Made by a program: the position numbers and the translations under genes. Below, in pieces: positions 25,317 through 39,001 of a DNA stretch of 64,000 nt. This DNA is from Actinomycetota bacterium (GTDB lineage: Bacteria; Actinomycetota; Actinomycetes; S36-B12; FW305-bin1). Within the stretch, counting starts at the first letter, position 1, and each line of letters opens with the position of its first letter. The stretch lies in assembly GCA_004297305.1 (NCBI GenBank), contig SCTR01000006.1, positions 442,129-506,128 of the forward strand, in the 5' to 3' direction. The notes below the pieces were generated by a model. That model saw only the letters and a program-made list of their open reading frames with translations. It was not told where the DNA came from and ran no database searches.

Positions 25317-26555
25317 TCAGCCCCCGTTCGACGAGAAGTGCTGGTAATCCGGGTGGGACCAGCGGGCTCCCCACAGCCACCCGACCCGCGCCATCGCGGT
25401 GGTCACGACCCCGCCCTTGAGGATCATTCCCTGCCGGTACGGCGATCGTACGAGGTAGCCCTTGCTGCCGGCCGGATAGATCCGCGAGCTGGTGACGTAC
25501 GGGTTCTGCGCGGTGTTGATGTCGACGGCGTTGCCGAAGGAATGCTGCGAGAGCCGGTACGGATTGCCGGTGACCTTGCGGCAGTTGAAGGCCGATGTCG
25601 CCCCCGCCTCCATCGCCTTCACATCCTTGCCCTTGAACGCATCGGCGGGGACGACGCGCTGCAACGGGAAGCGGTCGGCCAGCAGGCGGCCGAAGACGTA
25701 CTTGAGGTCCTTGACCGCCGACGCCCGGACGACGAGGTCACCGCGGGTCAAGCGGCCGCTGAAGTCCCAGTACGTCAACGTCATCCGCCGCAGCTTGCCC
25801 GGCGTCACCGGGCAGCCGCGCCGGTAGGTGTAGCGGACGTCCTTCGCCTTCAGCCGGCCGGAGACCGCCAGCGCGAGGGTCACGTCGACGTGCTGACTGA
25901 TCCCTGCGACGGTCTCGACCTTGCCGTCGCCCCATCGCGCCGACACCTGCAGCGGGACGTCGCCGCCCAGCGTCGGCTTCCACGCCACCGCGAAGCTTCC
26001 GTCCGCGGCAGCATCGGCACCGCCCACGGCGATCCACTCACCGTTGCCGACGTCCTGCGCGGCAAGGGTGACGCGAACCGGGCCGGGACCGGCGGCAGCC
26101 GGCGACACCGAGCCGGTGACGGTGGTCGTCGCCAGGGAGTGCGCCGCCGGTGGCGGGCTCACCGTCAACGTGCGGCGGGCCACCACAGACACCGTGACCT
26201 GGGCCGGGTCGCTCTGCCTCGTGCCGTCGCCGGCGCGGTAGTAGAAGGTGTCCGTGCCGGTGAAGCCCCGGTCCGGGGTGTACCGCACCGCCTGGCCGCC
26301 GTCGACGATCTCCACCCGCCCATGCGCGACGTCGCGGTCCGCGGATACGGCGATGACCCGCAACGGTCCGCCGGCATCGGCGGGTGCGTCGTTGGCGAGC
26401 ACCGCGACAGTGACCGCAGCGTCCGGTGCGGTCTCGGCCGCGTCGGGGGTGGCCACGGGTTGCGGCGCGGCACCGGCCGGCGCGGTGAACGCCAGGGCGA
26501 GCGCGGCAGCGACTCCGACGACCGTTGAGCCCCGGCCGGCGGTACGACGCCTCAC
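25317..26555 (-). CDS. secreted M15-family peptidase (D,D-/L,D-carboxypeptidase type)
   Basis: A 412-aa exported protein: signal peptide ending near AGAAP, a cadherin/Ig-like segment (VLANDAPADAGGPLRVIA to YYRAGDGTRQ, about 35-125), a second beta-rich segment, and a C-terminal M15C peptidase domain (about 240-412). Zinc ligands are visible in SQHSFGNAVDIN (HxxxxxxxD) and HPDYQHFS. YRRGCPVTPGKLRRMTLTYW opens the domain as in VanY-like D-alanyl-D-alanine carboxypeptidases. It presumably trims peptidoglycan stems. Confidence 0.82.
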   Translation of the reverse strand: MRRRTAGRGSTVVGVAAALALAFTAPAGAAPQPVATPDAAETAPDAAVTVAVLANDAPADAGGPLRVIAVSADRDVAHGRVEIVDGGQAVRYTPDRGFTGTDTFYYRAGDGTRQSDPAQVTVSVVARRTLTVSPPPAAHSLATTTVTGSVSPAAAGPGPVRVTLAAQDVGNGEWIAVGGADAAADGSFAVAWKPTLGGDVPLQVSARWGDGKVETVAGISQHVDVTLALAVSGRLKAKDVRYTYRRGCPVTPGKLRRMTLTYWDFSGRLTRGDLVVRASAVKDLKYVFGRLLADRFPLQRVVPADAFKGKDVKAMEAGATSAFNCRKVTGNPYRLSQHSFGNAVDINTAQNPYVTSSRIYPAGSKGYLVRSPYRQGMILKGGVVTTAMARVGWLWGARWSHPDYQHFSSNGG

Positions 26556-30631: not shown

Positions 30632-31768
30632 GTGTCGTTGACCGTACGCGCGATAACCGCTGCCGCGCACCGGGAATGGATCGCCACCCGGCCCCACGTC
30701 TCCTTCCTGCAGACCCCCGCGTGGGGTGAGGTGAAGTCGGGCTGGCAGGCGGAGTCCCTCGGCTGGTTCGCCGGCTCCCGGCTGGTCGGAGCCGGCCTGG
30801 CGCTGTACCGGCAGGTGCCGCGACTGCCCCGGTCGCTGGCCTACCTGCCCGGCGGACCCGATCTCGACTGGACCGGCGAACGGCTGCCCGGGACCGACCT
30901 GGACCAGTGGCTGCAACCGCTGTTGCGCCATGCCCGCGATCGCGGCGCCTTCACCGTGAAACTCGGTCCGGAGGTCGTGACGCGACGGTGGAGCGCGAGC
31001 ACCGTCAAGTCCGCAATCGCCACGGGCATGGCGAGCGGCCTCACGCAACTGCCGGCCGACGAGGAGGACGCCGCGGGCCGGGCCGTACTCGACCGGCTCG
31101 TCGCCCTCGGCTGGACCCGGGGCGCCGGTTCCGGTGCCGGGTTCGGCGACGTACAGCCCCGCCACGTGTTCTGCGTCCCGCTGGCCGGCCGCACCCTGGA
31201 CGACGTGTTCGCCGGGTTCAACCAGCAGTGGCGGCGCAACATCCGGCTGGCGACGAAGGCCGGCGTCACGGTGACGACCGGTTCGTACGACGACCTGCCG
31301 GCGTTCCACGAGGTGTACGTCGAAACTGCCGAACGGGACGGTTTCACCGCCCGCGGCCTGGCGTACTTCCAGCACATGTGGCGACAACTTCGCGCCGAGG
31401 ACCCGAACCGCCTCACGCTGTATCTGGCCCACCGCGGTGACGAACTGCTCGCCGCCACCACGATGACCCGCGTCGGCGACCGCGCCTGGTACTCCTACGG
31501 CGCATCGACGACCGCCGGCCGAGACGCGCGGCCGTCCAACGCGATCCAGTGGGCGATGCTCCGCGACGCGCACGCCGCCGGCTGCAGCGTGTACGACCTG
31601 CGCGGCATCTCCGACACCCTCGATCCCACCGACCACCTGTTCGGTCTGGTGCAGTTCAAACTGGGCACCGGCGGCTACGTCCAGGAGTACGCCGGCGAGT
31701 GGGACTATCCGGTACGCCCGCTGTGGCACAAGGCGTTCCGGTCGTACCTGGCCAGGAGGCAGGCGTGA
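30632..31768 (+). CDS. FemAB/FemX-type peptidoglycan aminoacyltransferase
   Basis: Transfers an amino acid from aminoacyl-tRNA to lipid II to start the interpeptide bridge. The 378-aa protein is FemAB-like throughout: FLQTPAWGEVKSGW near the N-terminus, FNQQWRRNIRLATKAGV in the middle and YDLRGISDTLDPTDHLFGLV with FKLGTGGYVQEYAGEWDYPV at the end. Two GNAT-like halves are expected. Start GTG 30632. It overlaps the downstream Alr-like gene by 4 bp (GTGA). Streptomyces femX lies in a comparable place near rpsF (from memory). Confidence 0.85.
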   Translation: MSLTVRAITAAAHREWIATRPHVSFLQTPAWGEVKSGWQAESLGWFAGSRLVGAGLALYRQVPRLPRSLAYLPGGPDLDWTGERLPGTDLDQWLQPLLRHARDRGAFTVKLGPEVVTRRWSASTVKSAIATGMASGLTQLPADEEDAAGRAVLDRLVALGWTRGAGSGAGFGDVQPRHVFCVPLAGRTLDDVFAGFNQQWRRNIRLATKAGVTVTTGSYDDLPAFHEVYVETAERDGFTARGLAYFQHMWRQLRAEDPNRLTLYLAHRGDELLAATTMTRVGDRAWYSYGASTTAGRDARPSNAIQWAMLRDAHAAGCSVYDLRGISDTLDPTDHLFGLVQFKLGTGGYVQEYAGEWDYPVRPLWHKAFRSYLARRQA

Positions 31769-32937
31769 CGCTGGCCCTGCACGTCGCTACCGAGCAGTGG
31801 CGCGCCCACGCCGCGGCCGTCGTCGCCGGGGTGGCCGCGACCGGGCCGGACGCCGCCGCTGTTGCCGTAGTGAAGGGAAACGGCTACGGCTTCGGCCAAC
31901 TGCTGCTGGCGTCGCGGGCCCGGCAGCTGGCGCCGGGGCCGATCGCGGTCGGCACCGTGGCGGAGGCCGCCGAACTGCTGGCGGCCGAACCGGACATCGA
32001 CGTCGTCATTCTGGAACCGGTTGACCACCAGGACATCACCGCGTTGCCGGCCGACCGCACCGTCTGCACCGTGGCGTCGGTGACCGGGCTGCTGGCAGCG
32101 GCCGAACGCGGCGGTCGCATTGTCGTGGAAGGGCTCACCTCGACTCACCGCTTCGGCATGGACGAAGCGGAACTGGCCGAAGGACTCGCGCGGCGGCCGG
32201 TGGCGGCCGCGCTCGCCGCGGGCCGGCTCACGATCGACGGTCTCGCCCTGCACCTGCCGATAGCTCAGCCGACCGGTCCGCGGCGGCCAACCGCGACGAC
32301 CCGGCGCGAACTGGACCCCGACAGCTGGCAGGCCGCCACACCGCGGGCCAGGGAAGCCATGGCCTGGGGTTGGTGGTGGACCCAGGTGCTCGACCGCCTC
32401 GGGCTGCCCGAACCGGCGCGCCGGCGCGCCAACGTGGTCTGGCTGTCACACCTGGCCGACTCCGAACTGGCTGCGGTCGGCCAGGCACTGCCGGCCGCGG
32501 CCCTGCGGGCTCGGCTGGGCACCCGATTGTGGCTGCAGGACAAGGAATCACTGCGGGTGTCGGCCACCGTCGCCGCCGTACACCCGGTGGACAGCGTCGA
32601 GACCGTCGGCTATCGGCAGCGCCCGGGGCCGCGCGGCGCCACGCTCGTCGTGGTGAGCGGGGGTACCCGGCACGGCGTCGGCCTGGCCGCCCCGGCGGCG
32701 GCGCGATCGTGGCGGCAGCGAGCGACGGCTGCCGGTTCCGGCGCGTTGCAGGCCACCGGCCGAGCCATGTCGCCGTTCCGGTGGCAGGGACGGCGATTGT
32801 GGTACGCCGAACCGCCGCACCTGTCGGTATCGCTGCTGTGGGTACCACGCGGCGTGGTGGTGCCGGCCGTCGGCGACGAGCTGGACTGCACCGTCCGGTT
32901 CACCACCACCACGTTCGACGCCGTCGTCTGGGAATAG
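31765..32937 (+). CDS. alanine racemase-like PLP protein lacking the catalytic Tyr
   Basis: A 390-aa fold-type III PLP protein. The PLP Lys is in VVKGNGYGFG (VKANAYGHG in Alr), and THRFGMDEAEL matches the TGMxRxG region. The C-terminal beta-domain is recognisable (ARLGTRLWL, ETVGYRQRPGPRGATLVVVS), but the position of GY[AS]DG, whose Tyr is the second catalytic base of Alr, reads SGGTRHG. True alanine racemase activity is therefore doubtful. Translational coupling to femAB suggests a role in bridge or amino-acid supply for the cell wall. Confidence 0.72.
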   Translation: MTLALHVATEQWRAHAAAVVAGVAATGPDAAAVAVVKGNGYGFGQLLLASRARQLAPGPIAVGTVAEAAELLAAEPDIDVVILEPVDHQDITALPADRTVCTVASVTGLLAAAERGGRIVVEGLTSTHRFGMDEAELAEGLARRPVAAALAAGRLTIDGLALHLPIAQPTGPRRPTATTRRELDPDSWQAATPRAREAMAWGWWWTQVLDRLGLPEPARRRANVVWLSHLADSELAAVGQALPAAALRARLGTRLWLQDKESLRVSATVAAVHPVDSVETVGYRQRPGPRGATLVVVSGGTRHGVGLAAPAAARSWRQRATAAGSGALQATGRAMSPFRWQGRRLWYAEPPHLSVSLLWVPRGVVVPAVGDELDCTVRFTTTTFDAVVWE

Positions 32938-34821: not shown

Positions 34822-35067
34822 GTGTCCGTGAGCGAGTCTGAGGCGTACGAGGCGGGCATGTCGCTGTCCGCTGACGCGCGTCGGCGGCTGGCACTTCGGT
34901 TGCTCGAGTCAGTGAACCCTGACGAAGCCTTCGACCAAGCAGCGGAGGCATGGCTGCGCACAGAAGCGGCCGCGGCGTACGACGCCCTGAAGGCTGACCC
35001 GTCCCGAGCGGTTCCAGCTGAGGATGTTCGGGCTCGCATCGAGGCCAAGTGGGCCGCCCGTTCATGA
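34822..35067 (+). CDS. type II antitoxin-like protein (addiction module)
   Basis: An 81-aa acidic, Ala-rich helical protein: MSLSADARRRLALRLLESVN in the N-terminal half and RTEAAAAYDALKADPSRAVP with VRARIEAKWAARS at the end. The pattern matches short antitoxins of the ParD/RelB-like addiction-module group, which bind the toxin and autoregulate the operon. Its stop overlaps the toxin start (ATGA), the usual arrangement. Confidence 0.72.
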   Translation: MSVSESEAYEAGMSLSADARRRLALRLLESVNPDEAFDQAAEAWLRTEAAAAYDALKADPSRAVPAEDVRARIEAKWAARS

Positions 35068-35405
35068 CGGGCCGGATCAACCTCACTCCCGAAGCCGAAC
35101 GACAGCTCAACGAGATCGACGACTGGATCGCCAAGACTGCGACAGCCGACATCGCCCGACGCTTCGTCTCGGCGATCCTGGATCACATCGACGGAATCCT
35201 CCTCTTCCCGCTCGCCGGCAGAAGTCGTGAGGACATACGCCCAGGGATGCGGACGACCACCTACCGGAAGCGGACCCTCGTCGTCTACGGGGTCGACGAC
35301 TCGTCGGGGGAGGTCGTGGTCAACGTCCTTGCGGTCTTTCATGGTGGCCAAGACTGGGAGGCCGCACTCAAGTCAGGGCAAGGCGTCTCGGACGCGGATG
35401 CATGA
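35064..35405 (+). CDS. ParE/RelE-superfamily toxin
   Basis: A 113-aa protein. NLTPEAERQLNEIDDWIA, RFVSAILDHIDGILLFPLAGR, MRTTTYRKRTLVVYGVDD and VLAVFHGGQDWEAAL follow the ParE pattern (helical hairpin, then a beta-sheet with a conserved Tyr-Arg region). ParE toxins inhibit gyrase and RelE toxins cut mRNA; the branch here is more ParE-like. ATG 35064 is used because it overlaps the antitoxin stop by 4 bp; a GTG at 35049 would add five residues. Confidence 0.78.
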   Translation: MTGRINLTPEAERQLNEIDDWIAKTATADIARRFVSAILDHIDGILLFPLAGRSREDIRPGMRTTTYRKRTLVVYGVDDSSGEVVVNVLAVFHGGQDWEAALKSGQGVSDADA

Positions 35406-35452: not shown

Positions 35453-36895
35453 TCAGGTGACGTTTCGGTGTGCGACGTCGGGCTGGACCGGCTCGGCCTG
35501 GCTGGGCCGTAACACAGCTCGGTCCTGCGCTCCGTCCAGACAGCCACCACCCGGGTCGTCGGCGTGCTCGGGAACACCGTCGGACCGGATCGGATCGTAG
35601 GCCGGCCGCAGGATGTCGCGGACCACGAGCGCGGCGAACCAGAGCGTCGCGATGACGTGCAGCCAGATCGCGGCGGCGTACCAGCCGGGCAGTAGCCCCT
35701 TGGCATCCTTTTCCAGCCCGACCAGGTACCACCAGATCGCGACCACGTAGCAGACCTCGGCCGCCTGCCAGATCAGGAAGTCCCGCCACCGCGGACGCGC
35801 GAGCACCGCCAGTGGCAGCAGCCACAGGACGTACTGCGGCGAATAGACCTTGTTGGTCAGGACGAAGGCCGCCACGATCAGGAACGCCGCCTGCGCCAGC
35901 CTCGGCCGCCGCGGCGCGAAGATGATCAACGCCGCGATCCCGGCCGCCGCCAGCAGCAAGCTGATCGCGACGTAGCTGTTCAGCGAGGTCGCCGAGACGC
36001 CGTGCCCGGCCGTCGTCAGGGCGAGCCAGACCGAGCCGAAGTCCTCGCCGCGCTCGCGGCTGAACGTATAGAAGTACGACCAGGAGTACGGGTTGGCCAG
36101 CGCCAGCGGGAGGTTGACCACCGACCAGGCGACGGCCGCACCGAGCACGAACCGGCCGAACTGCGGCATTCGGGCCGCGCGCCAGCACAGCAGGAGCAGG
36201 ACGCCCAGCAGCACCACCGGATAGAGCTTGGCCGCCACGGCAAGTCCGAGTGCGACGCCGGCCCAGCCCTCACGCTGCCGGGACCACAGCAGCAGGCTCA
36301 CCGACGTGAGGGCGAGCGCGAGCAGGTCCCAGTTGATCGTGGCGACGAAAAGCATGCACGGCGCGACCGCCACCATCGCGGCGTCCCACGGCCGCCGAAC
36401 CACCGTCTTGGCCGTCGCGGCGACGGTGACGAGGAAGCACGCGGCCAGCATCACGACGTTGACCTGGTAGAAGGCGCTCCACGAGCCGACCCTGCCCAGC
36501 GCCCGGGTGAGCAGCGCCGCGACGTACATGAACCCGCCGGTCAGGACCGGGTACTCCAGCGGTTGCTGGCCGGCCAGCGGATCCTGCAGGTACGGGATGA
36601 TCCCGTCGGCCAGCCCGCGCAGCGGGTACAGCACCGGAATGTCGCTGTAGCACAGGTGCTCGTAGCGGTCCGGCGACGCCCAGGAGTTGGCCACGCAGGG
36701 CGCCTTGAGCAGGGCACCGGCCAGATACGTCAGGCCGCCCAGCACGAGCAACACCCGGACCGGGGTCCACCAGGTCGCCCCGAACCGGGCCCGGCGGCCG
36801 ATCGGTCCGCCGAATCCCTCGGTCGCCGCCTGCAGTTGCGGGTCGGCCCGGGTGGGCAGGACCGGGTCGGACCTCACGCGGTCATGGTGCCGCAC
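35453..36895 (-). CDS. GT87-family polyprenol-phosphate-dependent mannosyltransferase-like protein
   Basis: A 480-aa polytopic membrane protein with about ten hydrophobic segments. An early external loop holds CVANSWASPDRYEHLCYSD with the acidic motif expected of GT-C enzymes; VYSPQYVLWLLPL near residue 335 is the hallmark of GT87 (DUF2029). Known members (PimE, actinobacterial relatives) add mannose from polyprenyl-phosphate-mannose to envelope glycolipids. GTG 36895 is the longest start; GTG 36877 is also possible. It lies 6 bp downstream of the PBP gene on the same strand. Confidence 0.82.
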   Translation of the reverse strand: MRHHDRVRSDPVLPTRADPQLQAATEGFGGPIGRRARFGATWWTPVRVLLVLGGLTYLAGALLKAPCVANSWASPDRYEHLCYSDIPVLYPLRGLADGIIPYLQDPLAGQQPLEYPVLTGGFMYVAALLTRALGRVGSWSAFYQVNVVMLAACFLVTVAATAKTVVRRPWDAAMVAVAPCMLFVATINWDLLALALTSVSLLLWSRQREGWAGVALGLAVAAKLYPVVLLGVLLLLCWRAARMPQFGRFVLGAAVAWSVVNLPLALANPYSWSYFYTFSRERGEDFGSVWLALTTAGHGVSATSLNSYVAISLLLAAAGIAALIIFAPRRPRLAQAAFLIVAAFVLTNKVYSPQYVLWLLPLAVLARPRWRDFLIWQAAEVCYVVAIWWYLVGLEKDAKGLLPGWYAAAIWLHVIATLWFAALVVRDILRPAYDPIRSDGVPEHADDPGGGCLDGAQDRAVLRPSQAEPVQPDVAHRNVT

Positions 36896-36901
36896 ACCCG
36901 G

Positions 36902-39001
36902 CTACGGTGCGGAGCCGGACGCGCTGGGACGTGGGGCAGTCGGGGATCCCGACGGGCTCGGCGGCGGTGTCGACGCCGGTGTCGAGGTCGGCGTGGCCGT
37001 GGGCGACGGCGGCGTGCTGCTGACCGACGGCGTCGGGGTCGGGGTGACCGACACCGACGGGGTGGACGTCGGAGAAGTGCTGACGCTGGGGCTCGGGGCG
37101 GTGGCCGACGGGCTGGGCCGGACCAGATCCGGTGGGGTGGTGAACTCCTCGACGTCGCTGCCCTGCAGCGCGGCGGACATGAAGGCGGTCCAGATGCGGG
37201 CCGGGAACGACCCGCCGGTCACGCTGGACAGACCGCCGGTGCCCGACAGCGTTTGCGGATTGCCCGCCTTGTCGTCCTTCACCATCATCACCGCGCCCGC
37301 CAGTTGCGGGGTGTAGCCCACGAACCAGGCCGACTTGTTGCCGTCCGTGGTGCCGGTCTTGCCGGCCGCCGGACGATCCAGTTGCGCGGCGGCGAAGCCG
37401 GTCCCGTCGGTGACGACCTTCGACAGGGCGTACGTCACGGTGTCGGCCACGTCCGCGCTGAAGGCCTGCACCGGACGCGGATCGGCCTGGACCAGCAGCC
37501 CGCCGTTGGCCTCCCGGACCTCGCGCAACACCGTCGTTGCCACGGCACGGCCGTGCGCGGCGAACGTGGCGTACGCCGACGCGAGGTCGATGGTGTGCGG
37601 CGAGGCGGTTCCCAGCACGAATGTAAGGTTGTCGGCCATACCGGCGGTGTCAGCAGGGATGCCGGCGCGGGTGGCCGCCGCCATCACCTTGCCGACACCG
37701 ACCTGGTTGGTGAGGTCGACGTACGCGGTGTTGATCGAGTCCTCGGTCGCCCGCAGCAGCGACACCGTGCCGTACGACGTGTTCCCGTAGTTGCGCAGCG
37801 TGTATCCGGCGATCGTGCGCGGACTGGCACCGTTCCAGGTCGACGACAGCGGCACCCCGGTCTCGGTCGCCGCGGCCAGGGCGAACGGTTTGAACGTCGA
37901 CCCGGCCTGCGCGATGGCCTGCGTGGCGTTGTTGAGCGGATCGGTCAGGTAGTCCGGGCCGCCGTACATCGCCACGACCGCACCGGTCCCAGGGGTCACC
38001 GCGGCCAGGCCGATCCGGAGCCGGTCGGTGCCGGTGGTCGGACCCTGCGCCTTGATCGCGGCGACCGCCGCGCGCTGGGCCTTGCGGTCGAACGTCGTGA
38101 CGATGCGCAGCCCGCCACCGTCGATGTCGTCCTCGGTGAAACCCTGCCCCAGCAACTGGTCGCGGACCGCCGCCAGCAGGTAGCCGTCGGTGCCGGAGAA
38201 GCGATCGGCCGACTGGCGCTTGGTGAACCGGGGAAACACCGTCGCGTCGCGTTGCGCCTGCGAGATCCAGCCCTTGCTCACCATGCCATCCAGGACGTAC
38301 GCCCAGCGGCCCTGCAGTTTCGCGAGGTTGTTCTCCGGCGAATAACCGCCCGGGGAACGAATGATCGCCGCCAGCGCCGCGGACTGGGCGAGGTCCAGCG
38401 AGGCGGCGGAGGTCCCGAAGTAGGCCTGCGCCGCAGTCTCGATGCCGTAGGCGCCGCGACCGAGATAGATCGTGTTGAGGTAGTCCGAGAGGATGTCGTC
38501 CTTCGACGAACTGGTTTCCAGTTTCACTGACAGCAGCAGTTCTCGCGCCTTGCGGGAGAAGGTGCGGTCCTGGGTGAGGAACGCGTTCTTCGCGTACTGC
38601 TGGGTGATGGTCGATCCGCCCTGGGTGGATCCGCCGGTCAGGTTGTTCCAGGCAGCACGGACGATACCGGCCGGCGAGAAGCCGCCGTGGTCGTAGAAGT
38701 CACGGTCCTCGGCGGCGAGTACGGCGTGCTGGGCGGTCACGCTCACCTGGTCCAGCGGCACGCTGATCCGGTTGGCGTCGCCGAGCCGGCCGAGTTCCGT
38801 CGTCCCGTCCGACCAGTACACGATCGTGGTCTGCGCCGTGGCGACCTCGTTCGGCTCCGGGATGGTGGTCAGCGCGACCGCGAGCAGGAAGCCGCCGACG
38901 ACAGCGACCACGGTGGCACCGGCCAGCGCCAGCAGTTGCCGCCACGAGGGCAGCCAGTGACGGACGCCGGTGCGATTCCGGCGCGGATAGTCGATCCTCA
39001 C
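36902..39001 (-). CDS. bifunctional class A penicillin-binding protein (PonA-like)
   Basis: Polymerises and cross-links peptidoglycan. The 699-aa protein has one N-terminal membrane helix (about 25-46), a GT51 domain with AAEDRDFYDHGGF (Glu98) and TQGGSTITQQYAKN, and a transpeptidase domain with AGSTFKPF (Ser368, Lys371), EDSINTAY (SxN) and KTGTT. The last ~75 residues are a Pro/Ser/Thr tail. GTG 39001 lies inside a 14-bp direct repeat that also supplies an out-of-frame GTG at 39017. It corresponds by context to ponA1 near ino1 in mycobacteria. Confidence 0.93.
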   Translation of the reverse strand: MRIDYPRRNRTGVRHWLPSWRQLLALAGATVVAVVGGFLLAVALTTIPEPNEVATAQTTIVYWSDGTTELGRLGDANRISVPLDQVSVTAQHAVLAAEDRDFYDHGGFSPAGIVRAAWNNLTGGSTQGGSTITQQYAKNAFLTQDRTFSRKARELLLSVKLETSSSKDDILSDYLNTIYLGRGAYGIETAAQAYFGTSAASLDLAQSAALAAIIRSPGGYSPENNLAKLQGRWAYVLDGMVSKGWISQAQRDATVFPRFTKRQSADRFSGTDGYLLAAVRDQLLGQGFTEDDIDGGGLRIVTTFDRKAQRAAVAAIKAQGPTTGTDRLRIGLAAVTPGTGAVVAMYGGPDYLTDPLNNATQAIAQAGSTFKPFALAAATETGVPLSSTWNGASPRTIAGYTLRNYGNTSYGTVSLLRATEDSINTAYVDLTNQVGVGKVMAAATRAGIPADTAGMADNLTFVLGTASPHTIDLASAYATFAAHGRAVATTVLREVREANGGLLVQADPRPVQAFSADVADTVTYALSKVVTDGTGFAAAQLDRPAAGKTGTTDGNKSAWFVGYTPQLAGAVMMVKDDKAGNPQTLSGTGGLSSVTGGSFPARIWTAFMSAALQGSDVEEFTTPPDLVRPSPSATAPSPSVSTSPTSTPSVSVTPTPTPSVSSTPPSPTATPTSTPASTPPPSPSGSPTAPRPSASGSAP

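Follow-up and report, generated by a model that had tools for sequence, protein, structure and literature searches.

The window, by which we mean the whole 64,000-nucleotide stretch of DNA analyzed here, belongs to an actinobacterial genome of 2.68 Mb and contains two overlapping plus-strand genes: femX, which encodes a FemABX-type aminoacyl transferase, and a gene 3' of it that encodes an alanine racemase (Alr)-like protein, for which we use the name AlrL. A preliminary description of the locus had reported that the start of the second gene overlaps the stop of the first by 4 bp, that the Alr-like protein keeps the PLP Lys in the motif VVKGNGYGFG, and that the GY[AS]DG motif, which holds the catalytic Tyr of Alr, reads SGGTRHG. 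All three observations hold. The parts of the pair to which we refer below are as follows.

Positions 30632-31768, plus strand: femX, FemABX-type aminoacyl transferase of 378 residues, GTG start and TGA stop, PF02388.
Positions 31765-31768, plus strand: 4-bp overlap of the femX stop and the alrL start, GTGA, read from the sequence.
Positions 31765-32937, plus strand: alrL, PLP protein of 390 residues with a predicted Alr fold and without the catalytic Tyr, GTG start, identified by PF01168 and an AlphaFold2 model.
Positions 31867-31896, plus strand: VVKGNGYGFG, residues 35-44, with PLP Lys37 and phosphate-site Tyr41, both invariant in 57/57 AlrL.
Positions 32149-32151, plus strand: Arg129, counterpart of the substrate-carboxylate Arg of Alr, in 57/57 AlrL, 18/18 of a sister clade and 19/19 Alr.
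Positions 32251-32253, plus strand: His163, counterpart of the active-site His of Alr, in 57/57 AlrL, 18/18 of the sister clade and 19/19 Alr.
Positions 32656-32676, plus strand: SGGTRHG, residues 298-304, with Thr301 at the catalytic Tyr position by profile alignment (57/57).
Positions 32677-32769, plus strand: residues 305-335, a 31-residue stretch defined by alignment lengths, with a helix at 316-330 that carries Arg319 in the AlphaFold2 model.
Positions 32818-32820, plus strand: His352, in the loop that replaces the CMD motif of Alr, in 57/57 AlrL, 17/18 of the sister clade and 0/19 Alr.

The femX product matches the FemAB domain of Pfam (PF02388) at 169.2 bits against a cut-off of 24, and its closest solved chain is 6snr, a lipid II:glycine glycyltransferase (E 1.1e-32); judged by its family, it would transfer an amino acid from aminoacyl-tRNA to a precursor. 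It belongs to the same family as FemX of Streptomyces coelicolor, whose gene is SCO3904 (PMC3123327, in excerpt) and whose product adds a single glycine branch (PMC4790382, in excerpt). A relative of FemX, VanK, is tied to glycopeptide resistance in Streptomyces, according to excerpts of PMC4790382 and PMC6001138. Pairs of femX and alrL occur in other Streptomyces, and the excerpts of PMC3123327 and PMC4790382 that deal with the S. coelicolor protein name FemX only, not alrL.

Conservation was assessed on an alignment of 57 AlrL rows (A3), made up of the window protein and 56 sequences hand-picked, with near-copies thinned, from 80 taxon-named loci, which are themselves the best 80 of 475 profile matches in genome contigs. 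The query for that search was a second alignment (A1), and a single-protein query gave no match in the same contigs. Since the taxon-named relatives were fetched with patterns that included GGT[AS]HG or KGNGYG, the sample is biased for those motifs; a 30-row alignment of relatives found by whole-protein query, in a search and its follow-up, agrees with it, with Thr301 in at least 90% of rows. Weak whole-protein matches (G022, and the second matches of G013, G015, G031 and G059) are probably true Alr and not AlrL. For comparison we aligned 19 bona fide Alr from relatives (A4), drawn from 20 loci of which one, L184, had no frame through the filter and was left out, and the residue counts for the sister clade refer to 18 distinct sequences out of 22 matches (L197-L200, L202-L211 and L216-L223). 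Alignment A1 includes one divergent row without the PLP Lys, L041, in which the motif reads VESHAWG; it lies on a short contig and is perhaps a decayed or contaminant copy.

Structure prediction, which the preliminary description had proposed as a check on the Alr-like protein, returned a confident AlphaFold2 model (pLDDT 93.8, pTM 0.89) with the full Alr fold. Alanine racemases rank first when this model is searched with Foldseek (1xfc, E 2.9e-15), and VIA-align superposes it on alanine racemase 5yyc with a Z score of 26.0 over 324 residues at 3.1 Å. The model contains both the barrel and the beta domain and aligns with Alr over residues 1-390, in contrast to YggS/PLPBP-type proteins, which consist of the barrel alone. 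A fold in common is by itself no demonstration of function. The domain models place AlrL at a distance from Alr as usually recognized (TIGR00492; PF01168 plus PF00842): the sole Pfam match of the window protein is Ala_racemase_N (PF01168, 48.1 bits), Ala_racemase_C (PF00842) is absent from it and present in 2/57 members (best E 0.0036), and the NCBI equivalog model for Alr, TIGR00492, yields 32.5 bits, its cut-off being 168. Across the 57 AlrL, Pfam at E 0.01 found nothing beyond Ala_racemase_N, Ala_racemase_C and WCX, and in particular no C-terminal domain of the D-threonine aldolase or D-serine dehydratase type.

A housekeeping racemase is encoded elsewhere in these genomes. Exactly one PF00842 gene is present in each of 20/20 genomes, including the genome of the window, where the Alr gene lies outside the window at C6:138516; because this Alr is separate, AlrL is not the housekeeping racemase. 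Taken jointly, the Alr fold of AlrL, its pairing with femX and its non-housekeeping status are conclusions that we hold with high confidence. Searches for AlrL in plasmids and in PHROGs gave no matches.

The resemblance of AlrL to Alr extends to much of the active site. The motif K[AG][ND]xYG with its PLP Lys is present, and Lys37, Tyr41, Arg129, His163, Ser228, His229, Arg250, Tyr283, Thr301 and His352 are invariant in all 57 rows; judged by eye, Arg250 appears to be the counterpart of the Arg that contacts the pyridine nitrogen, the local profile alignment being offset at this point. The departures from Alr are equally regular. In a profile-profile alignment of A3 with A4, residues G300-T301-R302-H303-G304 pair with G-Y-A-D-G of the 19 Alr, so that GY[AGS]DG is replaced by a sequence with Thr for Tyr and His for Asp, and the CMD loop is replaced by PPHxxxS. 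Because Thr301 occurs in 57/57 AlrL and Tyr occupies the equivalent position in 19/19 Alr, the loss is not due to chance or to a sequencing slip, and a frameshift was likewise rejected, since many genomes keep both the reading frame and the motif. Loss of the Tyr is a trait of the family. The preliminary description had named a Tyr from another loop as what would overturn its reading, and the alignment lends this no support: the only columns with Tyr in at least 20 of the 57 rows are 41 and 283, where true Alr likewise has Tyr, so no substitute is visible.

Alanine racemase uses Lys39 for the D form of its substrate and Tyr265 for the L form (PMC6411801, in excerpt), and replacement of Tyr265 by Ala in the Geobacillus enzyme yields a D-specific aldolase in which racemization is down 4 x 10^5-fold (PMC3962088, in excerpt; see also the excerpted PMC6411801). 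AlrL misses the same Tyr and keeps the same His, although it has Thr and not Ala at this position, occurs in nature as a conserved family that has changed in many other places, and is known here from its sequence. The likeness raises the idea that AlrL is an aldolase cleaving D-beta-hydroxy amino acids to provide glycine for the branch, an idea that accords with the similarity of its partner FemX to a glycyltransferase. Apart from the difference between Ala and Thr, this reading meets the absence of a D-threonine-aldolase-type C-terminal domain from the 57 members, and FemX receives its glycine as glycyl-tRNA from the general pool; we consider it improbable.

A second amino-acid racemase, acting on alanine, serine or another amino acid with Lys37 and Thr301 as its bases, would suit the full two-domain Alr fold and the finding that 74 of 75 sequences have a hydroxyl residue in place of the Tyr (57 Thr in the FemX-linked clade; 9 Ser, 8 Thr and 1 Asp in the sister clade). 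AlrL also shares its fold, and weak profile matches in 56/57 members, with the VanT-type serine racemase domain, although the window protein reaches 26.4 bits against a cut-off of 460 and lacks the membrane domain that VanT possesses. An excerpt of PMC6411801 describes a Lys and Ser pair as the proposed acid-base groups of serine racemase, and with a hydroxyl residue retained in AlrL, racemase-type chemistry is therefore conceivable. The term "non-racemase" used in the preliminary description consequently goes further than an invariant Thr, with Ser or Thr in 17/18 of the sister clade, would allow. Set against a second racemase are the housekeeping Alr already present, the low Alr equivalog score and the exchange of the CMD motif for the PPH..S loop, and its probability is in our estimate low.

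Within the class, the association of alrL with femX is nearly complete. In the class sample, a single fixed set of 394 genomes searched for AlrL at E 1e-20 and for FemX at E 1e-40, AlrL was found in 164 genomes, FemX in 166 and both in 164; the Fisher p of 2e-111 for this co-occurrence treats genomes as independent and is descriptive only. In two genomes (G081 and G138) FemX was found but no AlrL match, even at E 1e-3. Gene order is as constant as co-occurrence: femX lies 5' of alrL on the same strand in 29/30 loci of relatives, three of them with a gap of 760-1180 bp, in 18/20 further loci, three of which come from the same genomes as those long-gap loci, in 20/20 additional class loci, and in 78/80 of the taxon-named loci (the best 80 of 475), where the two exceptions start at the end of a contig. 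For the latter set the gap between the genes has a median of 10 bp and is at most 100 bp in 73/78. FemX was not found at L023, where AlrL is close to the contig end, or at L041 and L046. In L047, L048 and L049 the 760-1180 bp between femX and alrL form an extra, gene-sized stretch, which in L049 holds a 202-aa ORF on the strand opposite to the pair. Open frames of about 740 residues had hinted at a natural FemX-AlrL fusion, an arrangement that we rejected when the genes proved separate in 20/20 loci.

The distribution of the pair calls for care in reading these counts. Six families (f5, f31, f32, f34, f37 and f42) each include pair-bearing genomes together with near-complete genomes that have neither gene, which indicates that femX and alrL were gained or lost as a unit, and linkage alone suffices for this. 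In family f24, which we take to be Streptomycetaceae, AlrL accompanies FemX in 39/39 sampled genomes, and both in Streptomyces and in the relatives of the window the pair is often located beside rplI-rpsR-ssb-rpsF. The pairing is thus confounded by linkage and descent, as adjacent genes come and go together.

A feature of AlrL that sets the FemX-linked clade apart is an addition between the SGGTRHG motif and the SPF motif. The spacing from Gly304 to Ser336 is exactly 31 residues in 57/57 FemX-linked sequences, 8-12 in 18/18 sequences of the FemX-less clade and 8 in 19/19 Alr, so that a fixed addition of 23 residues before SPF is peculiar to the clade that accompanies FemX. The predicted helix at 316-330 lies within it, and position 319 is Arg in 53 sequences and Lys in 4. 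The addition may dock FemX or hold substrate; a single ancestral insertion accounts for it equally well, since the addition follows the tree. These observations bear on the proposal that AlrL is a PLP-bound but non-catalytic partner or regulator of FemX, which would sense an amino acid such as glycine, dock by way of the added helix and, in the sister clade, attend to a different wall step. The near-perfect pairing with FemX, the fixed 31-residue stretch that is absent from the FemX-less clade, and a basic residue at position 319 in all 57 sequences speak for such a partner, whereas the catalytic-type Lys, Arg and His are invariant despite great divergence, fusion to FemX is seen in 0/20 loci, and the sister clade lives without FemX. 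In our judgment the proposal is somewhat unlikely.

The sister clade emerged from a phylum sample of 296 genomes, some of them within the class, in which AlrL matches outside the class were confined to four genomes of a single family, f69, which belongs to another class and is apparently Ilumatobacteraceae. Among 61 genomes of this family AlrL is present in 54 (E 1e-10), and FemX gives only weak partial matches in four (best 3.3e-10), located either on a different contig or at a distance of 36 kb. The 18 distinct sequences keep the Lys, Arg, His, Ser-His and SPF. In a maximum-likelihood tree both AlrL clades stand opposite true Alr with support of 100/100, the FemX-linked clade being supported at 91/81 and the sister clade at 83/86. 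The coupling of alrL to a gene for a bridge-forming aminoacyltransferase, as claimed in the preliminary description, is supported, and the survey of the neighbors of Tyr-less Alr homologs that it suggested shows how far this coupling reaches: FemX stands beside alrL in the class, where 164 genomes share both, but the coupling is not universal, as FemX is not adjacent in the sister clade (AlrL in 54/61 genomes). Since the sister clade works without FemX, the link to FemX is not essential to the AlrL family, and we rejected AlrL as an obligatory FemX subunit for the family as a whole, a verdict that does not extend to the FemX-linked clade. AlrL is neither a housekeeping racemase nor simply a subunit of FemX. 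At L197, the one sister locus scanned, the neighbors encode DUF4395, DUF418 and ROK proteins.

We considered what the hosts of AlrL might have in common. Within the best 80 of 475 matches, the taxon-named hosts are Streptomyces, Kitasatospora, Aeromicrobium, Mumia, Marmoricola, Nocardioides, other Nocardioidaceae, Jiangella and uncultured actinobacteria, with one further host, a strain labeled Saccharothrix sp. ST-888 (L117). Jiangella has LL-diaminopimelate, Ilumatobacter fluminis has LL-diaminopimelate and glycine, and the genus Saccharothrix has meso-diaminopimelate; a literature search for LL-diaminopimelate in Ilumatobacter or Jiangella found no statement. Excerpts of PMC6113628 assign LL-A2pm and glycine to Nocardioidaceae, LL- or DL-A2pm to Streptomycetaceae, and directly cross-linked DL-A2pm to Corynebacteriaceae. 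The taxon-named hosts are thus largely of LL-diaminopimelate lineages, a correlation over the named hosts among the best 80 of 475 matches.

The reading that we tentatively favor, as a possible rather than a probable account, is that AlrL is a PLP enzyme of the diaminopimelate/glycine branch, the diaminopimelate chemistry being the guess in it. AlrL would be a PLP-binding, Alr-derived enzyme serving LL-diaminopimelate peptidoglycan with a glycine branch, its gene in one operon with femX, whose product adds that glycine. It would still bind an amino acid as a PLP aldimine, and with the smaller Thr301 its site could admit a larger substrate, for which diaminopimelate, through its free amino-acid end, is the leading candidate, whether as the free compound or within a cell-wall precursor. 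Chemistry at the alpha carbon of diaminopimelate, either epimerization or removal of the D form, would fall to Lys37, alone or together with Thr301 as a second acid-base, and the L configuration needed by FemX would be maintained. The diaminopimelate of the stem peptide has a free carboxylate end, whose amino group is the one acylated by FemX. The retention of Arg129 favors a substrate amino acid whose carboxylate is free, and diaminopimelate chemistry is favored because the stem peptide offers just the free end that FemX acylates. Counting against it, DapF is present in 382/394 class genomes and 59/61 sister-clade genomes, so an LL/meso epimerase is not missing; for the same reason we rejected replacement of DapF by AlrL as a general rule. 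The confounding of the pairing by linkage and descent, the sister clade that works without FemX, and the one host labeled with the name of a meso-diaminopimelate genus, Saccharothrix, also count against the reading.

A narrower form of the diaminopimelate reading, in which AlrL would act on the residue inside the precursor and set or proofread its configuration at the free end before glycine is added by FemX, with the 23-residue addition docking FemX or holding the precursor, is in our view unlikely; if true, it would account for the LL-diaminopimelate walls of actinobacteria whose cells also make the meso form.

These findings have implications for the wall biology of the actinobacteria concerned. 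In Streptomyces walls the branches are formed by FemX, and alrL goes with femX almost without exception. Literature searches on SCO3903, which we take to be the number of alrL in S. coelicolor, and on alanine racemase in connection with FemX or FemAB found no paper that treats the pair as a unit, and no function for alrL was described in the literature searched; in excerpts of PMC6765224, Fem proteins and alanine racemase are handled separately. The AlrL family is a variant on the already known Alr fold. The joint travel of femX and alrL points to an undescribed cell-wall step of putative chemistry, and the as yet undefined cell-wall role proposed in the preliminary description fits everything seen. 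If AlrL acts on a precursor, it would be a missing step of wall synthesis; as a regulator, it would be a FemX partner of a new kind. At a practical level, "alanine racemase" annotations at the femX locus should not count as sources of D-alanine.

Other genes of the window encode proteins that may be noted here. Downstream of the pair and convergent with it are genes for a GT87-like mannosyltransferase (35453-36895, minus strand) and a class A penicillin-binding protein (36902-39001, minus strand), and inspection of translations by eye showed similar genes just 3' of alrL at several other loci. A ParE-type toxin (PF05016, 49 bits) is encoded at 35049-35405 on the plus strand, its start overlapped by an 81-aa ORF (34822-35067, plus strand) that may be the antitoxin. 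The product of a gene at 25317-26555 on the minus strand combines an Ig-like domain with an M15 D-Ala-D-Ala carboxypeptidase domain.
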